From positions 62,001-126,000 of the forward strand of contig JACYLN010000061.1 in NCBI GenBank assembly GCA_015272515.1: a stretch of DNA of 64,000 nucleotides, written 5' to 3'. Under the pieces are notes generated by a model. That model was not told where the DNA came from. It worked only from the letters and a program-made list of their open reading frames with translations, and searched no databases. Made by a program: the position numbers and the translations under genes. This document shows, piece after piece, positions 3,179-59,657 of the stretch; within the stretch, counting starts at the first letter, position 1, and every line of letters begins with the position of its first letter. Origin of the DNA: Leptolyngbyaceae cyanobacterium C42_A2020_001 (GTDB lineage: Bacteria; Cyanobacteriota; Cyanobacteriia; Leptolyngbyales; Leptolyngbyaceae).

Positions 3179-3305
3179 GAGCCAGAAGGCAGAAGGTAAG
3201 GAAGGGGGACAATCAAAATTCCAGATTTTCCAACTCCTCAATTCCTAATCTCCAATTCCCAATTCCCTTATGCCCTATCCCCGACTCCCTATCCCCCTAC
3301 ATCTT
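3166..3305. repeat. Short G/C-skewed degenerate repeats
   Basis: Starts inside the cobK stop region with GAGCTAGAAGTTAGGAGCCAGAAGGCAGAAGG, then A+T-rich CAATTCCTAATCTCC/CAATTCCCAATTCC units and C-rich CCTATCCCC units. This purine-rich followed by pyrimidine-rich layout recurs through the window, in intergenic spaces and inside some ORFs. Confidence 0.6.
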
Positions 3306-18695: not shown

Positions 18696-19667
18696 TTAAC
18701 TTTTGACTGCTCTCCTCCACTCAAATCGAGGCGCTTGCCAAACTGCATCTAGCAACAACGTTAGGGGGGAGAGCACAAACAGCGCCCAAAAGACGGCTGT
18801 GGGGATGAAGAAGACATTTCGCAGGACAAATGTCAGGAGGGCGATCGCCCCTGCCCAAAGCAGTCTTGCGGTGCGATCGTTGGGAATGGTACGAGGGTCA
18901 GTCACCATGAACAGGGCAAACAGTAGCAAAGAGCCACTCATCAGACGATGCGCCCAAACATCCCATGTCCAGCCCAGCCAAACATTCCGTAGGGCTTCTA
19001 AAAAGCCGTAAGCACCCAGGAAGGCAACGGTGGTATCCCAACGCCCAACTCGCTGAAGCACAATCCCACCTGCTCCCAGAAACACCAGTGCATACCAGCT
19101 TTCCTCCCCCCATTGTCCAGGTGAGATCCAGGCATCCTGGGTGAGCAGAACCGCCGCCACAATGCCGATGTTGCCGGGGTTGAATAGGTGTTTGTCCTGT
19201 ACTCTCAGCACAAACTTGCTCAAAATCGCCACGCTACCTGCCAAAACCATTGTGCTGTAGTGCTCTGTCCGCAGGAGCAGGCTTAAACCAAGAGAGGTAA
19301 TGAGGGGACTGAGGAGACCTGTAGGGGATAGGGGACAGGGGGTAGGAGATGGGGAACCGGGGGAGGGGAAATTGGGAATTAATGATTGGGAATTGGTGAT
19401 TGGTGGTTGGGGTTCTGGAGAGTTTTGAATTTTGGTTTCCGGTGAGTCAGCCCAAGTGAATTTTGAATTTTGAATGTTTCCCTCACTTTCTGACTCCTGA
19501 CTTCTGACCCTACCAACAACCCAGGTTGCGATCGCTTGAGTCGTTAAACAGGTGGCGATCGCAGTCAAGATCATTCTTGGATGTAGAGTCCAGTCTCGCG
19601 TTCCAATTCCCAGAGTTAAAAACAAAGCTAGGAATAAAATTTGGTAAATCCTTGCGTCTCGCAGCAT
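18696..19667 (-). CDS. RnfD/NqrB-family membrane protein
   Basis: 323 residues from the ATG at 19667 (MLRDARIYQILFLALFLTLG); a longer frame to 19799 adds 44 residues without membrane character and is less likely. About nine hydrophobic helices; the blocks DKHLFNPGNIGIVAAVLLTQDAWISPGQWG and FALFMVTDPRTIPNDRTARLLWAGAIALLTFVL match the RnfD/NqrB flavin-bearing subunit family, though here as a stand-alone protein without other Rnf/Nqr genes. Between helices 2 and 3 there is an in-frame insertion of about 65 residues (RSQESESEG, IQNSKF, IQNSPEPQPPITNSQSL, NFPSPGSPSPTPCPLSPT) encoded by the dispersed repeat family; it should form a disordered loop. Confidence 0.8.
   Translation of the reverse strand: MLRDARIYQILFLALFLTLGIGTRDWTLHPRMILTAIATCLTTQAIATWVVGRVRSQESESEGNIQNSKFTWADSPETKIQNSPEPQPPITNSQSLIPNFPSPGSPSPTPCPLSPTGLLSPLITSLGLSLLLRTEHYSTMVLAGSVAILSKFVLRVQDKHLFNPGNIGIVAAVLLTQDAWISPGQWGEESWYALVFLGAGGIVLQRVGRWDTTVAFLGAYGFLEALRNVWLGWTWDVWAHRLMSGSLLLFALFMVTDPRTIPNDRTARLLWAGAIALLTFVLRNVFFIPTAVFWALFVLSPLTLLLDAVWQAPRFEWRRAVKS
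19318..19512. repeat. Repeat tract inserted in frame within the RnfD-like gene
   Basis: Contains GGGGATAGGGGACAGGGGGTAGGAG, GGGAATTAATGATTGGGAATTGG units, GAATTTTGAATTTTGAATG, and TCTGACTCCTGACTTCTGACCC. Each sub-motif also occurs in intergenic repeat tracts or in the metH inserts. The reading frame is kept open throughout. Confidence 0.75.
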
Positions 19668-55895: not shown

Positions 55896-58800
55896 ATGCG
55901 TAGCCCATTTCTTGAGCGTCTTCATCACCCCGATCGCCCCGTCATCGTCTTCGATGGCGCAATGGGTACCAATCTCCAGGTGCAGAATCTCACCGCAGAA
56001 GACTTTGGTGGCGCGGAGTATGAAGGCTGCAACGAGTATCTGATCTTTACCAAGCCAGAAGCCGTTGCCAAAGTACATCGCGATTTTTTGGCAGCAGGCG
56101 CGGATGTGATTGAAACCGATACCTTTGGGGCAACCTCCATCGTTCTGGCAGAATACGACCTGACAGATAAAGCCTACGAACTCAACAAAGCCGCGGCAGA
56201 ACTGGCTAAACAGGTCACAGCAGAATTTTCCACCCCTGAAAAGCCCCGCTTCGTCGCAGGTTCCATTGGACCCACCACCAAACTACCCACACTGGGGCAC
56301 ATCGACTACGACACCATGAAAGCCTCCTTTGCCGAGCAAGCAGAAGGGTTGTGGGATGGCGGTGTGGACTTGTTCATCGTGGAAACCTGTCAGGATGTGT
56401 TGCAGATTAAAGCAGCACTCAATGGCATCGAAGAAGTCTTTGCCAAAAAGGGATCGCGCCGTCCGTTGATGGTCTCTGTAACGATGGAACTCCAGGGCAC
56501 GATGCTGGTGGGTTCCGATGTTGCTGCCATGCTCACCATCCTGGAGCCGTACCCCATTGATATTCTGGGGTTGAACTGCGCCACTGGACCCGATCGCATG
56601 GCAGAACACATCAAATATCTGTCCCAACATTCACCCTTTGTCGTTTCCTGTATTCCCAACGCCGGAATTCCCGAAAATGTGGGAGGTCATGCCCACTACA
56701 AACTCACCCCAATGGAACTCCGCATGGCACTCACCCGCTTTGTGGAAGATCTGGGTGTGCAAGTGATTGGCGGCTGCTGCGGCACACGCCCCGATCACAT
56801 TCATCAACTGGCAGAAATTGCCGCGACCTTGAAACCGAAAGAAAGACCGGTTCGAGTCAGAAGTCAGGATGCGGAGAGTGAGGGAGTTAGGGAGGGGATG
56901 AGTGGACGAGTCAGCGAAACTCCATCCACCCATCCACCCATCCACCCCTCTCCCCGTTCACCCATCACCAATTATCAACCCCCCACCCCTCTCCCCAACC
57001 CCCGCCCCGCGCTTGGCTATATCCCTGCCGCTGCGTCGATCTACGCCACGCAACCTTACGACCAGGACAATTCTTTCCTGCTTGTGGGTGAACGGCTAAA
57101 TGCTAGTGGTTCTAAAAAGGTGCGGGAACTGCTGAATGCCGAAGATTGGGATGGGCTGGTGTCGGTGGCGCGATCGCAGGTGCGAGAAGGTGCCCATGTT
57201 CTGGATGTGAACGTGGATTATGTGGGACGGGACGGCGAGAAAGATATGCGCGAACTCGTGTCTCGCTTAGTCACGAATGTCAACCTGCCGCTGATGCTCG
57301 ATTCCACCGAATGGGAAAAGATGGAAGCGGGATTGAAGGTGGCAGGCGGCAAGTGCATCCTCAACTCCACCAACTACGAAGATGGCGAACCCCGGTTCTT
57401 GAAAGTGCTCGAACTGGCAAAACGCTACGGTGCAGGAGTCGTGGTTGGTACGATTGACGAAGATGGCATGGCGCGGACGGCGGAGAAGAAGTTTCAAATT
57501 GCTCAACGGGCTTATCGTCAGGCATTGGAGTTTGGCATTCCGGCACACGAGCTGTTTTTTGATACGCTAGCGCTGCCTATCTCCACCGGGATTGAAGAAG
57601 ACCGGGAAAACGGCAAAGCCACGATTGAATCGATTCGGATGATTCGCGAAAACTTGCCTGGGTGTCACATTCTGTTGGGCGTGTCCAATATTTCCTTTGG
57701 GCTGAGTCCGGCGGCGCGAATTGTGTTGAACTCCATGTTCTTGCATGAAGCGGTGCAGGTTGGCATGGATGGGGCGATCGTTAGTGCCGCAAAAATCCTT
57801 CCCCTGGCAAAAATCGATCCCCTCCACCAGGAAGTTTGTCGCCAGTTGATTTACGATCAACGCCGCTTTGAGGGGGATGTGTGCGTCTATGATCCGCTCA
57901 CCCAACTCACTACCCTGTTTGAAGGCGTTTCTGCGAAAGAAGCCCGTTCTAAAGACTCGCTGGTAGATTTGCCCATCGAAGAACGGCTAAAGCGACACAT
58001 TATCGACGGTGAACGGATTGGGCTGGAGGAGGCGCTTACCGAAGCGCTTAAAACCTATAAACCCCTCGACATCATCAACACCTTTTTGCTGGATGGGATG
58101 AAGGTTGTCGGTGATTTGTTTGGGTCTGGACAAATGCAACTGCCCTTCGTGCTGCAATCGGCGGAAACCATGAAAGCGGCTGTTGCCCACTTGGAACCGT
58201 TCATGGAAAAGAGCGAAACCAACAGCTCAAAAGGTGTGTTCCTGATCGCGACAGTCAAGGGTGATGTGCACGACATTGGCAAAAATTTGGTGGATATTAT
58301 CCTCACCAACAACGGCTACAAGGTGATTAATCTGGGCATCAAACAACCCGTTGAAAACATCATCGAGGCATATCAGGAACACAAAGCAGACTGCATCGCC
58401 ATGAGCGGCTTGCTGGTAAAATCCACTGCCTTCATGAAAGAAAACCTGGAAGTCTTCAACGATCGCGGCATCACAGTTCCGGTTATCCTCGGCGGCGCAG
58501 CCCTCACCCCCAAATTCGTCTACGAAGATTGCCAGAATGCCTACAAAGGTCGCGTCATCTACGGCAAAGATGCCTTCGCCGATCTTCACTTTATGGATAA
58601 GCTCATGCCCGCCAAAGCCGAAGGGCAGTGGGATGACTTGAAAGGATTTTTGGGAGAAGCTCAGACGGAAGATGGAGAAGATAAGGAGGATAGGGCAGAT
58701 GAGGAAGCCACTTCCTTACCTTCCCCATCATCTCCATCTTCCCCAACCCCCAAACCCGAACCCCTATCCCCTATTCCAGAAGACACCATCCCCTCGGAGG

Positions 58801-59657
58801 CGATCTCAGCCGATATTCCTCGTCCCACGCCACCCTTCTGGGGCACCTGCATTCTCACAACTCAAGAGATTCCCTGGGAAGAGATATTTTGGCATCTGGA
58901 CTTGCAGGCATTGATTGCCGGGCAGTGGCAGTTCCGCAAACCACGGGAGCAATCGCGGGAAGAATATGACCAGTTTTTAGCCGAGAAAGTGTATCCCATT
59001 CTGGAGCAATGGAAAGCCCGAATTGTGGAAGACAATCTCCTCGATCCACAGGTGATTTACGGCTACTTCCCCTGCCAGTCAGAGGGGAATTCGGTTCACA
59101 TCTACGATCCCGCTTCACTCCCCCACTCCCCCACTCCCCCACCCTCCCACTCCCTCACCCCTCTCGTCACCTGGAAATTTCCCCGACAAAAATCCCTGCG
59201 GCGCTATTGCATTGCCGACTTTTTTGCTTCTAAAGATTCAGGGCAGATAGATGTCTTCCCGATGCAGGCAGTTACCGCCGGGCAGAAGGCCACGGAATAT
59301 GCTCAGACTCTGTTCCAGGCGGATAACTATACTGATTACCTCTACTTCCACGGACTATCGGTGCAGATTGCGGAAGCCCTGGCGGAATGGACCCATGCTC
59401 GAATTCGGCGGGAACTGGGCTACGGCGATTTAGAACCCGACAATATTCGCGATATGCTGGCGCAGCGCTATCAAGGGTCGCGTTATAGCTTTGGCTATCC
59501 TGCCTGCCCGGATATTCAGTACCAGTACAAACAATTGGAGTTATTAGGCACGGAGCGAATTGGAATGTTCATGGACGAAAGCGAACAGCTTTATCCAGAG
59601 CAATCTACAACCGCGATCGTGGCTTATCATCCCGCTGCCAAATACTTCAGCGCCTGA
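55896..59657 (+). CDS. metH: Cobalamin-dependent methionine synthase
   Basis: 1253 residues from ATG 55896 ([21 protein letters not shown]); a TTG frame to 55794 is rejected because the N-terminus is not homologous. Domains: Hcy-binding barrel about 1-315 (DGAMGTNLQ; zinc Cys in LNCATGPDR and [12 protein letters not shown]), pterin-binding about 380-650 ([35 protein letters not shown]), cap and B12 domain about 690-920 ([17 protein letters not shown] with DVHDIG, His cobalt ligand; [15 protein letters not shown]), AdoMet activation domain about 970-1253 ([18 protein letters not shown]). Three in-frame low-complexity inserts (see repeat entries) sit in linkers or a surface loop. Uses cobalamin made by the cob genes of this region. 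Confidence 0.94.
56853..57005. repeat. In-frame repeat insert, metH linker 1
   Basis: Encodes [17 protein letters not shown] then [20 protein letters not shown] between the Hcy and pterin domains. Begins with GTCAGAAGTCAGGA, identical to the start of the RnfD-like insert, then GGGAGTTAGGGAGGGGATGAG and C-rich CCCATCCACCCATCCACCC units. Confidence 0.8.
58655..58790. repeat. In-frame repeat insert, metH linker 2
   Basis: GAAGATGGAGAAGATAAGGAGGATAGGGCAG followed by CCTTACCTTCCCCATCATCTCC and CCCCAACCCCCAAACCCG units. Encodes an acidic then Ser/Pro-rich linker ([31 protein letters not shown]) between the B12 and activation domains. Confidence 0.75.
59107..59165. repeat. In-frame repeat insert, metH activation-domain loop
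   Basis: CCCCCACTCCCCCACTCCCCCACCC tandem units encoding [16 protein letters not shown] inside the AdoMet-binding domain, at the surface loop before LVTWKFPRQ. Confidence 0.75.

Follow-up and report, generated by a model that had tools for sequence, protein, structure and literature searches.

A low-complexity loop in an RnfD/NqrB-like gene of a Leptolyngbyaceae cyanobacterium is probably a composite of dispersed, frame-preserving repeats

The RnfD/NqrB-like gene in the 64,000-nucleotide stretch of Leptolyngbyaceae DNA analysed here (the window) carries a long low-complexity loop. This loop is probably a composite of genome-specific dispersed repeats, part of a system that resembles the small dispersed repeats (SDRs) of cyanobacteria, sits on heptamer arrays and is kept where it is safe for the reading frame, in disordered loops. 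The observations behind this reading are the dispersal of the repeats, their orientation and frame within genes, the 24- or 48-bp size of the units, one length-matched empty site, the predicted disorder of the loop and the recurrence, in relatives, of repeat-filled loops at the same places.

Results

The tract in the RnfD-like gene

Residues 183-312 of the RnfD-like protein match Pfam PF03116 (NQR2_RnfD_RnfE) with 58 bits against a gathering cut-off of 27.7. All NCBIfam models remain below their cut-offs, so that the protein is certified neither as RnfD nor as NqrB, and a profile built from it retrieves RnfD chains from the PDB (8ahx, E 2.8e-12). A match to the protein is present in 37 of the 58 genomes searched. 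As the original prediction had it, a repeat tract lies in frame in this gene: the low-complexity sequence occupies residues 54-117 (minus strand, 19508 to ~19317), includes the peptide IQNSKFTWADSPETK, and leaves only one of the six frames open across 203 bases. On the coding strand a purine arm is followed by a heptamer array, a 24-bp unit, further heptamers, CAATC repeats and a pyrimidine arm (Table 1). In an AlphaFold2 model (31 sequences, mean pLDDT 78.1) a coil with pLDDT of about 42-53 separates helices at residues 30-61 and 115-131, and the earlier placement of the tract between transmembrane helices 2 and 3 is therefore correct. The tract is predicted to be disordered.

Part of the repeat vocabulary recurs in metH and in intergenic DNA, also as predicted. 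The first 12 bases of GTCAGAAGTCAGGAGTCAG have two copies in the window, the second in metH at 56856, where 0 were expected (100 dinucleotide shuffles). There are five copies of GGGAATTGG against 0.7 expected, a number that no shuffle reached, and two of them form a close pair between ORFs (3252-3267). In metH itself, low-complexity sequence lies in frame at three separate sites and shares the purine-arm and pyrimidine-arm wording of the RnfD-like tract. A strict-threshold scan of the window for purine/pyrimidine runs returned two tracts, and none in 10 block-shuffled controls; because it missed the RnfD-like tract, it was left out of the counting.

Table 1. Features of the window and of the window's own genome, with scores of host proteins against family models
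Feature	Position	Strand	Remarks
RnfD/NqrB-like (PF03116) gene	18696..19667	minus	ATG 19667, stop 18696; 323 aa
Purine-rich arm	19478..19512	minus	contains GTCAGAAGTCAGGAGTCAG (19490-19508); read as VRSQESE
Heptamer array	19458..19477	minus	ACATTC-AAAATTC-AAAATTC
24-bp unit a	19434..19457	minus	diverged copy ACTTGGGCTGACTCACCGGAAACC; commonest form GGTTCGGCTGACTCACCGGAAGCC
Heptamer array, continued	19420..19433	minus	AAAATTCAAAACTC
CAATC/CAATTCCC repeat stretch	19365..19419	minus	colinear with other genomic copies
Pyrimidine-rich arm	19315..19364	minus	CCCCTATCCCCTACAGG
metH in-frame repeat tract 1	56853..56996	plus	
metH in-frame purine/pyrimidine tract 2	58659..58802	plus	boundaries approximate
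metH in-frame pyrimidine tract 3	59112..59165	plus	
Clusters outside genes	C15, C26, C55:23530, C81, C88, C96, C140:16701, C147		
LigA host			905.9 bits (cut-off 369)
RecJ host			458.7 bits (cut-off 396.9)
MutM host			435.3 bits (cut-off 348)
PyrB host			373.3 bits (cut-off 263)
CimA (citramalate synthase) host			854.2 bits (cut-off 450)
Squalene-hopene cyclase host			896.1 bits (cut-off 431)
RecG host			1373.8 bits (cut-off 975)

Dispersal through the genome

We searched the window's own genome (G000; 5.55 Mb, 149 contigs) with the 203-base tract and obtained 41 places at E<=0.001, 40 of them other than the tract itself. The best of these matches at 81% over 119 query bases (E 3.5e-24), and colinear copies sit in unrelated long ORFs. 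At the protein level the insert peptide recurs at 13 other places, in other open frames. Exact copies of the unit core TTCGGCTGACTCACCGGAA number 14; two more have one mismatch, and at <=3 mismatches the total is 22, compared with 2 for the reversed control. For the full 24-mer there are 13 exact copies and 15 places at <=3 mismatches, a count that leaves out the window's own diverged copy. The exact heptamer pair AAATTCAAAATTC has 44 matches (reversed control, 1).

One alternative is that short seeds in a permissive loop were expanded locally by replication slippage, with nothing moving. The arms are indeed simple repeats of variable length, TRF reports tandem repeats at 19321-19363 and 19371-19403, and loop lengths vary widely across orthologs. 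Long colinear matches such as the best one above would be unexpected from independent slippage, as would an exact 24-bp unit in 13 places, and we regard slippage as the whole explanation as quite improbable. It may still account for the arms; the long arms could be pure slippage.

Size and nesting of the units

The distances between successive AAAATTC heptamers in the fetched regions of the genome (one mismatch allowed) favor two sizes, with 29 counts at 24 bp and 10 at 48 bp; other sizes had 1-10. Unrelated-looking sequences make up two of the nine distinct gaps at 24 bp and three of the eight at 48 bp. Two units, a (GGTTCGGCTGACTCACCGGAAGCC) and b (CCTTCGGTTCGACTCAGGGAGAAC), are each 24 bp, or 8 codons, long, and the 48-bp forms are unit a or b holding 24 further bases. 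A third 24-bp unit, c (CTTCCCAGAGCGTCAGCCGACGGG), follows TCAGG in AGTCAGG heptamer arrays and is also found inside unit b; at <=5 mismatches it has six places in all, of which five are exact.

Ectopic gene conversion or recombination among existing repeat-filled loops could also copy the inner modules, with no mobile element or dedicated enzyme. The shuffled module order (B-C-B, B-C-C2, C2-B-C-B) would fit such copying, as would the four 48-bp-type copies that lie within 26 kb of contig C79. Against it, the unit boundaries are exact when compared with uninterrupted heptamers, and gene conversion needs homologous flanks, whereas unit c occurs in two unrelated targets, the AGTCAGG array and unit b. 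We consider this account possible, if rather unlikely. The copies on C79 (L100 and L101, 84.6-110.6 kb) are in four genes, hinting from their positions at distance-dependent copying.

Orientation, reading frame and host genes

From the exact heptamer pairs (n = 44) and the core copies at <=1 mismatch (n = 16) we built 35 clusters in the genome. Twenty-seven of these are intragenic, one of them cut by the end of contig C148, and all 27 are in the readable orientation and in frame. The tract of the RnfD-like gene is not peculiar to that gene, and belongs to a related family with about 27 in-frame tracts in the same genome. The other eight clusters are outside genes. Cluster C15 was scored as such because the family match of its ORF starts past the array (residue 64), and C140:16701 is antisense at the extreme start of a 304-residue ORF, a start that is probably a false upstream extension. 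None of the 35 clusters was found to break a gene. For the single orientation of all 27, the two-sided p is 1.5e-8 under an assumption of independence, and the copies are not fully independent. Within genes, unit a reads as GSADSPEA or a close variant in a single frame, with the first of the mutM tandem pair as the exception, and IQNSKFGSADSPEAKIQNS or close variants are encoded in many hosts, a conserved peptide inserted in frame in unrelated genes. Because open frames helped to pick the hosts, frame retention is independent evidence solely where family matches flank the insert.

The intragenic hosts include LigA, RecG, RecJ, MutM, PyrB, CimA, CobN, DnaX, PutA and several histidine kinases; five (DnaX, LigA, RecG, RecJ and MutM) belong to the DNA synthesis/repair class. 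Family models flank or span the insert in LigA, RecG, RecJ, MutM, PyrB, citramalate synthase, squalene-hopene cyclase and PutA, with scores that mostly exceed the curated cut-offs (Table 1); for PutA the P5C dehydrogenase model is above its cut-off and the full PutA model below. Residues 21-246 and 302-725 of LigA align to residues 4-229 and 245-669 of the E. coli-type ligase 2OWO, and therefore the host has 55 residues where 2OWO has 15. The tract lies between recognised domains in the DnaX, CobB/CobQ-like and ABC-ATPase hosts, and precedes the main family match in CobN. The hosts on C46, C148, C11 and C129 have weak, partial or absent family support and are weaker evidence; a DnaG assignment for the C46 host was rejected, a TPR model being its sole match.

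The insert of three histidine kinases is followed directly by the HATPase_c match, which starts at profile position 36-38; one part of this domain was therefore struck repeatedly. Two kinases of another genus (G007) have unit-like sequence at a similar place. One HATPase_c stretch was apparently struck by inserts in two genera (L093, L100, L131, L137). The ORF at L100:3797-7234 combines an ammonium transporter domain, PAS, a histidine kinase and a receiver, and its HATPase carries an insert.

Removal of the tract before or during translation, by bypassing, RNA splicing or protein splicing, would give a mature protein that lacks it and would account for its tolerance in catalytic proteins. We find this very hard to credit: the strict orientation and open frame of every intragenic cluster would be unnecessary, and the tract has no stable RNA fold.

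Folding, vectors and enzymes

The RNA of the whole insert folds worse than its shuffles (z +1.56), which is not the stable fold seen in elements of the Rickettsia palindromic (RPE) kind. The commonest 24-mer folds no better than shuffles (z -0.12; unit b, z 0.44). A hairpin or RNA element was accordingly rejected. We also rejected carriage by phages or plasmids: an exact 22-mer had no match in IMG/VR, and searches of plasmids and phages gave no match. A 27-base core was not found in named genomes, a set from which the window's genome and very near records may be left out.

Movement of a REP/REPIN-type element in trans by a REP-associated tyrosine transposase was also considered. A variant from genome G014, CGTTCGGCTGAGCGCTCACGCCGAAG, forms a fair hairpin (-10.4 kcal/mol; 11 of 200 shuffles were as good), and a 236-residue Y1 transposase ORF, which we take to be RAYT-like, exists at L278:2499-3206. 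The ordinary folding of the commonest unit speaks against this candidate, as does the lack of any copy of unit a, within 4 mismatches, in the fetched flanks of the RAYT-like ORF; the linkage check covered that ORF plus a second Y1 locus in the genome, and leaves RAYT linkage of the unit unsupported. We consider such movement improbable. Matches to an IS200-like Y1 transposase are frequent in the sister species, where about 39 places tie for the top score (G002:C1); in the window's genome four matches score equally and all contain an internal TGA.

An empty site and shared loops in relatives

At mutM, the array of the window's genome minus its two exact 24-mers measures 46 bp, the length of the array in the sister species (G002). 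The latter consists of uninterrupted heptamers with short ends, and the remainder in the window's genome differs from it by a few substitutions. The target-site duplication that marks a MITE was not seen at mutM, where one would be hidden by the flanking heptamers. Citramalate synthase has a copy in the window's genome and only a short loop, with no copy, in the sister species, which is 88-92% identical nearby. Unit a at <=3 mismatches is absent from both the sister species and G001; it therefore arrived or spread in the window's genome after the split, or was lost in the other two.

At the site of the tract, the RnfD-like ortholog of the sister species carries nothing but arm-like sequence. 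This sequence recurs elsewhere in the window's genome, in G001, in the sister species itself and in G007. Since the tract is layered as well, the proposal of an insertion holds and that of a single insertion does not. In G007, 67% identical in the RnfD-like gene, a 60-bp stretch is 100% identical to that of the window's genome, and all three copies of unit a lie in other genes, where they share one reading frame with those of the window's genome. The unit was found at <=3 mismatches in 7 of 42 genomes of the order (reversed control, 0 in all 42). Related sequences lie outside long ORFs in G011 (two inspected) and G014 (one inspected). Heptamer counts of G007 and G015 were not used because the reversed control was frequent (154 vs 219 and 38 vs 57).

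The original prediction had suggested a comparison with orthologs that lack the insert. The segment from RDWxL to LITxLG spans 33-152 residues in 97 distinct RnfD-like orthologs (median 49) and 92 residues in the window; identical sequences were merged, and one of 110 loci (L017) was unmeasurable. Such orthologs thus exist, and the insertion in frame, its tolerance and its phasing stand as proposed. A loop of unrelated DNA origin common to all orthologs, named as the result that would speak against the proposal, was not what we observed, since some orthologs are without the insert and others have other repeats. Long loops often carry genome-specific repeats, such as RRQEAGGRRQKAGG...LHPSSLILHPS (L005), NPFGHKHCAPTPGWG (L342) and NNKGQMTNNKGQITN (L302). 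The L342 ortholog, from Nostocaceae, has a 152-residue loop segment of NPFGHKHCAPTPGWG-type repeats, also in frame. Among 20 aligned LigA proteins the loop is near zero in length in some and filled with other repeats in others, and in PyrB seven of the eight relatives aligned have extra residues, with repeat-like wording in at least five; the eighth (G001) yielded no sequence beyond the loop. Judged from these alignments, the same RnfD, LigA and PyrB loops are shared targets that were filled repeatedly in relatives.

Discussion

We propose that purine and pyrimidine arms and (AAAATTC)n arrays settle in protein surface loops, where slippage and recombination would lengthen the arms and heptamer arrays. 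Small elements, each exactly 24 bp long, would insert into the heptamers and then into each other. One strand of the arrays has no stop codon in any of the three frames, and the units measure 24 or 48 bp, so that the host frame survives additions made in the right orientation. Insertions of other kinds would presumably be purged, leaving survivors that are stop-free, frame-keeping and located in loops, and the protein would gain a disordered hydrophilic loop with its fold undisturbed. The tract peptide is presumably translated and may be neutral to the protein. By analogy with cyanobacterial SDRs the units are presumably mobile, and an enzyme, an RNA step or recombination may move them; the case for mobility comes from sequence comparison and one length-matched empty site, with two substitutions in the compared array. 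More tentatively, the units could be frame-safe micro-elements, fixed 8-codon (24-bp) cassettes that dock site-specifically in stop-free heptamer arrays, nest in 24-bp steps, move between genera and spread via coding DNA as recurring disordered peptides; this fuller version we hold to be doubtful.

The SDRs of Nostoc punctiforme are reportedly 21-27 nt long, often located in heptameric tandem repeats, nested, and taken to be recently mobile. Shared secondary structure is reportedly a trait of some SDR families only. Units a, b and c fall within this length range and are likewise embedded in heptamer arrays and nested. They differ from SDRs in that copies are mostly intragenic and in frame, the family has Leptolyngbya-type relatives, and the commonest unit has no convincing hairpin; the likeness drawn here is one of size and arrangement. 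Heptamer (STRR-type) repeats are also said to occur in cyanobacteria. Like them, the arrays described here repeat a 7-bp unit in tandem and are scattered through the genome of a filamentous cyanobacterium, with the difference that the unit is AAAATTC and has a single orientation inside genes. In Nostoc, 68% of the GGGNATC repeats are intergenic, and on the coding strand they are under-represented (PMC4692102).

Rickettsia palindromic elements are dispersed palindromes of about 150 bp that lie in frame in unrelated genes and encode a recurrent peptide (PMC10969869). The dispersed in-frame insertion and the recurrent peptide are common to both systems; here the insert combines arms, heptamers and 24-bp units, folds no better than shuffles and is no stably folding palindrome of that size. 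Intragenic GTAG/CGTC REPs are found in frame inside known proteins, often of DNA synthesis or repair, and most REPs are intergenic (PMC3733652). Short in-frame repeats and DNA synthesis/repair hosts are shared with the present family, which differs in that most of its clusters are intragenic. The kind of repeat is thus already known, SDR-like units in heptamers that are related in kind to RPEs and intragenic REPs, and what is new is the largely intragenic, frame-safe form. In the titles and abstract openings of the open-licence literature we found no account of SDR or heptamer tracts read in frame in cyanobacteria of the Leptolyngbya type.

Dispersed repeats that invade genes in frame are best known from Rickettsia. 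Should the present pattern hold, filamentous cyanobacteria would show such invasion on a comparable scale, and the fixed 8-codon size and stop-free context would explain insertion without loss of frame. For housekeeping proteins, LigA, PyrB and histidine kinases among them, the tracts would amount to a natural catalogue of permissive loops, and comparison with sister genomes would let one follow how very small elements spread.
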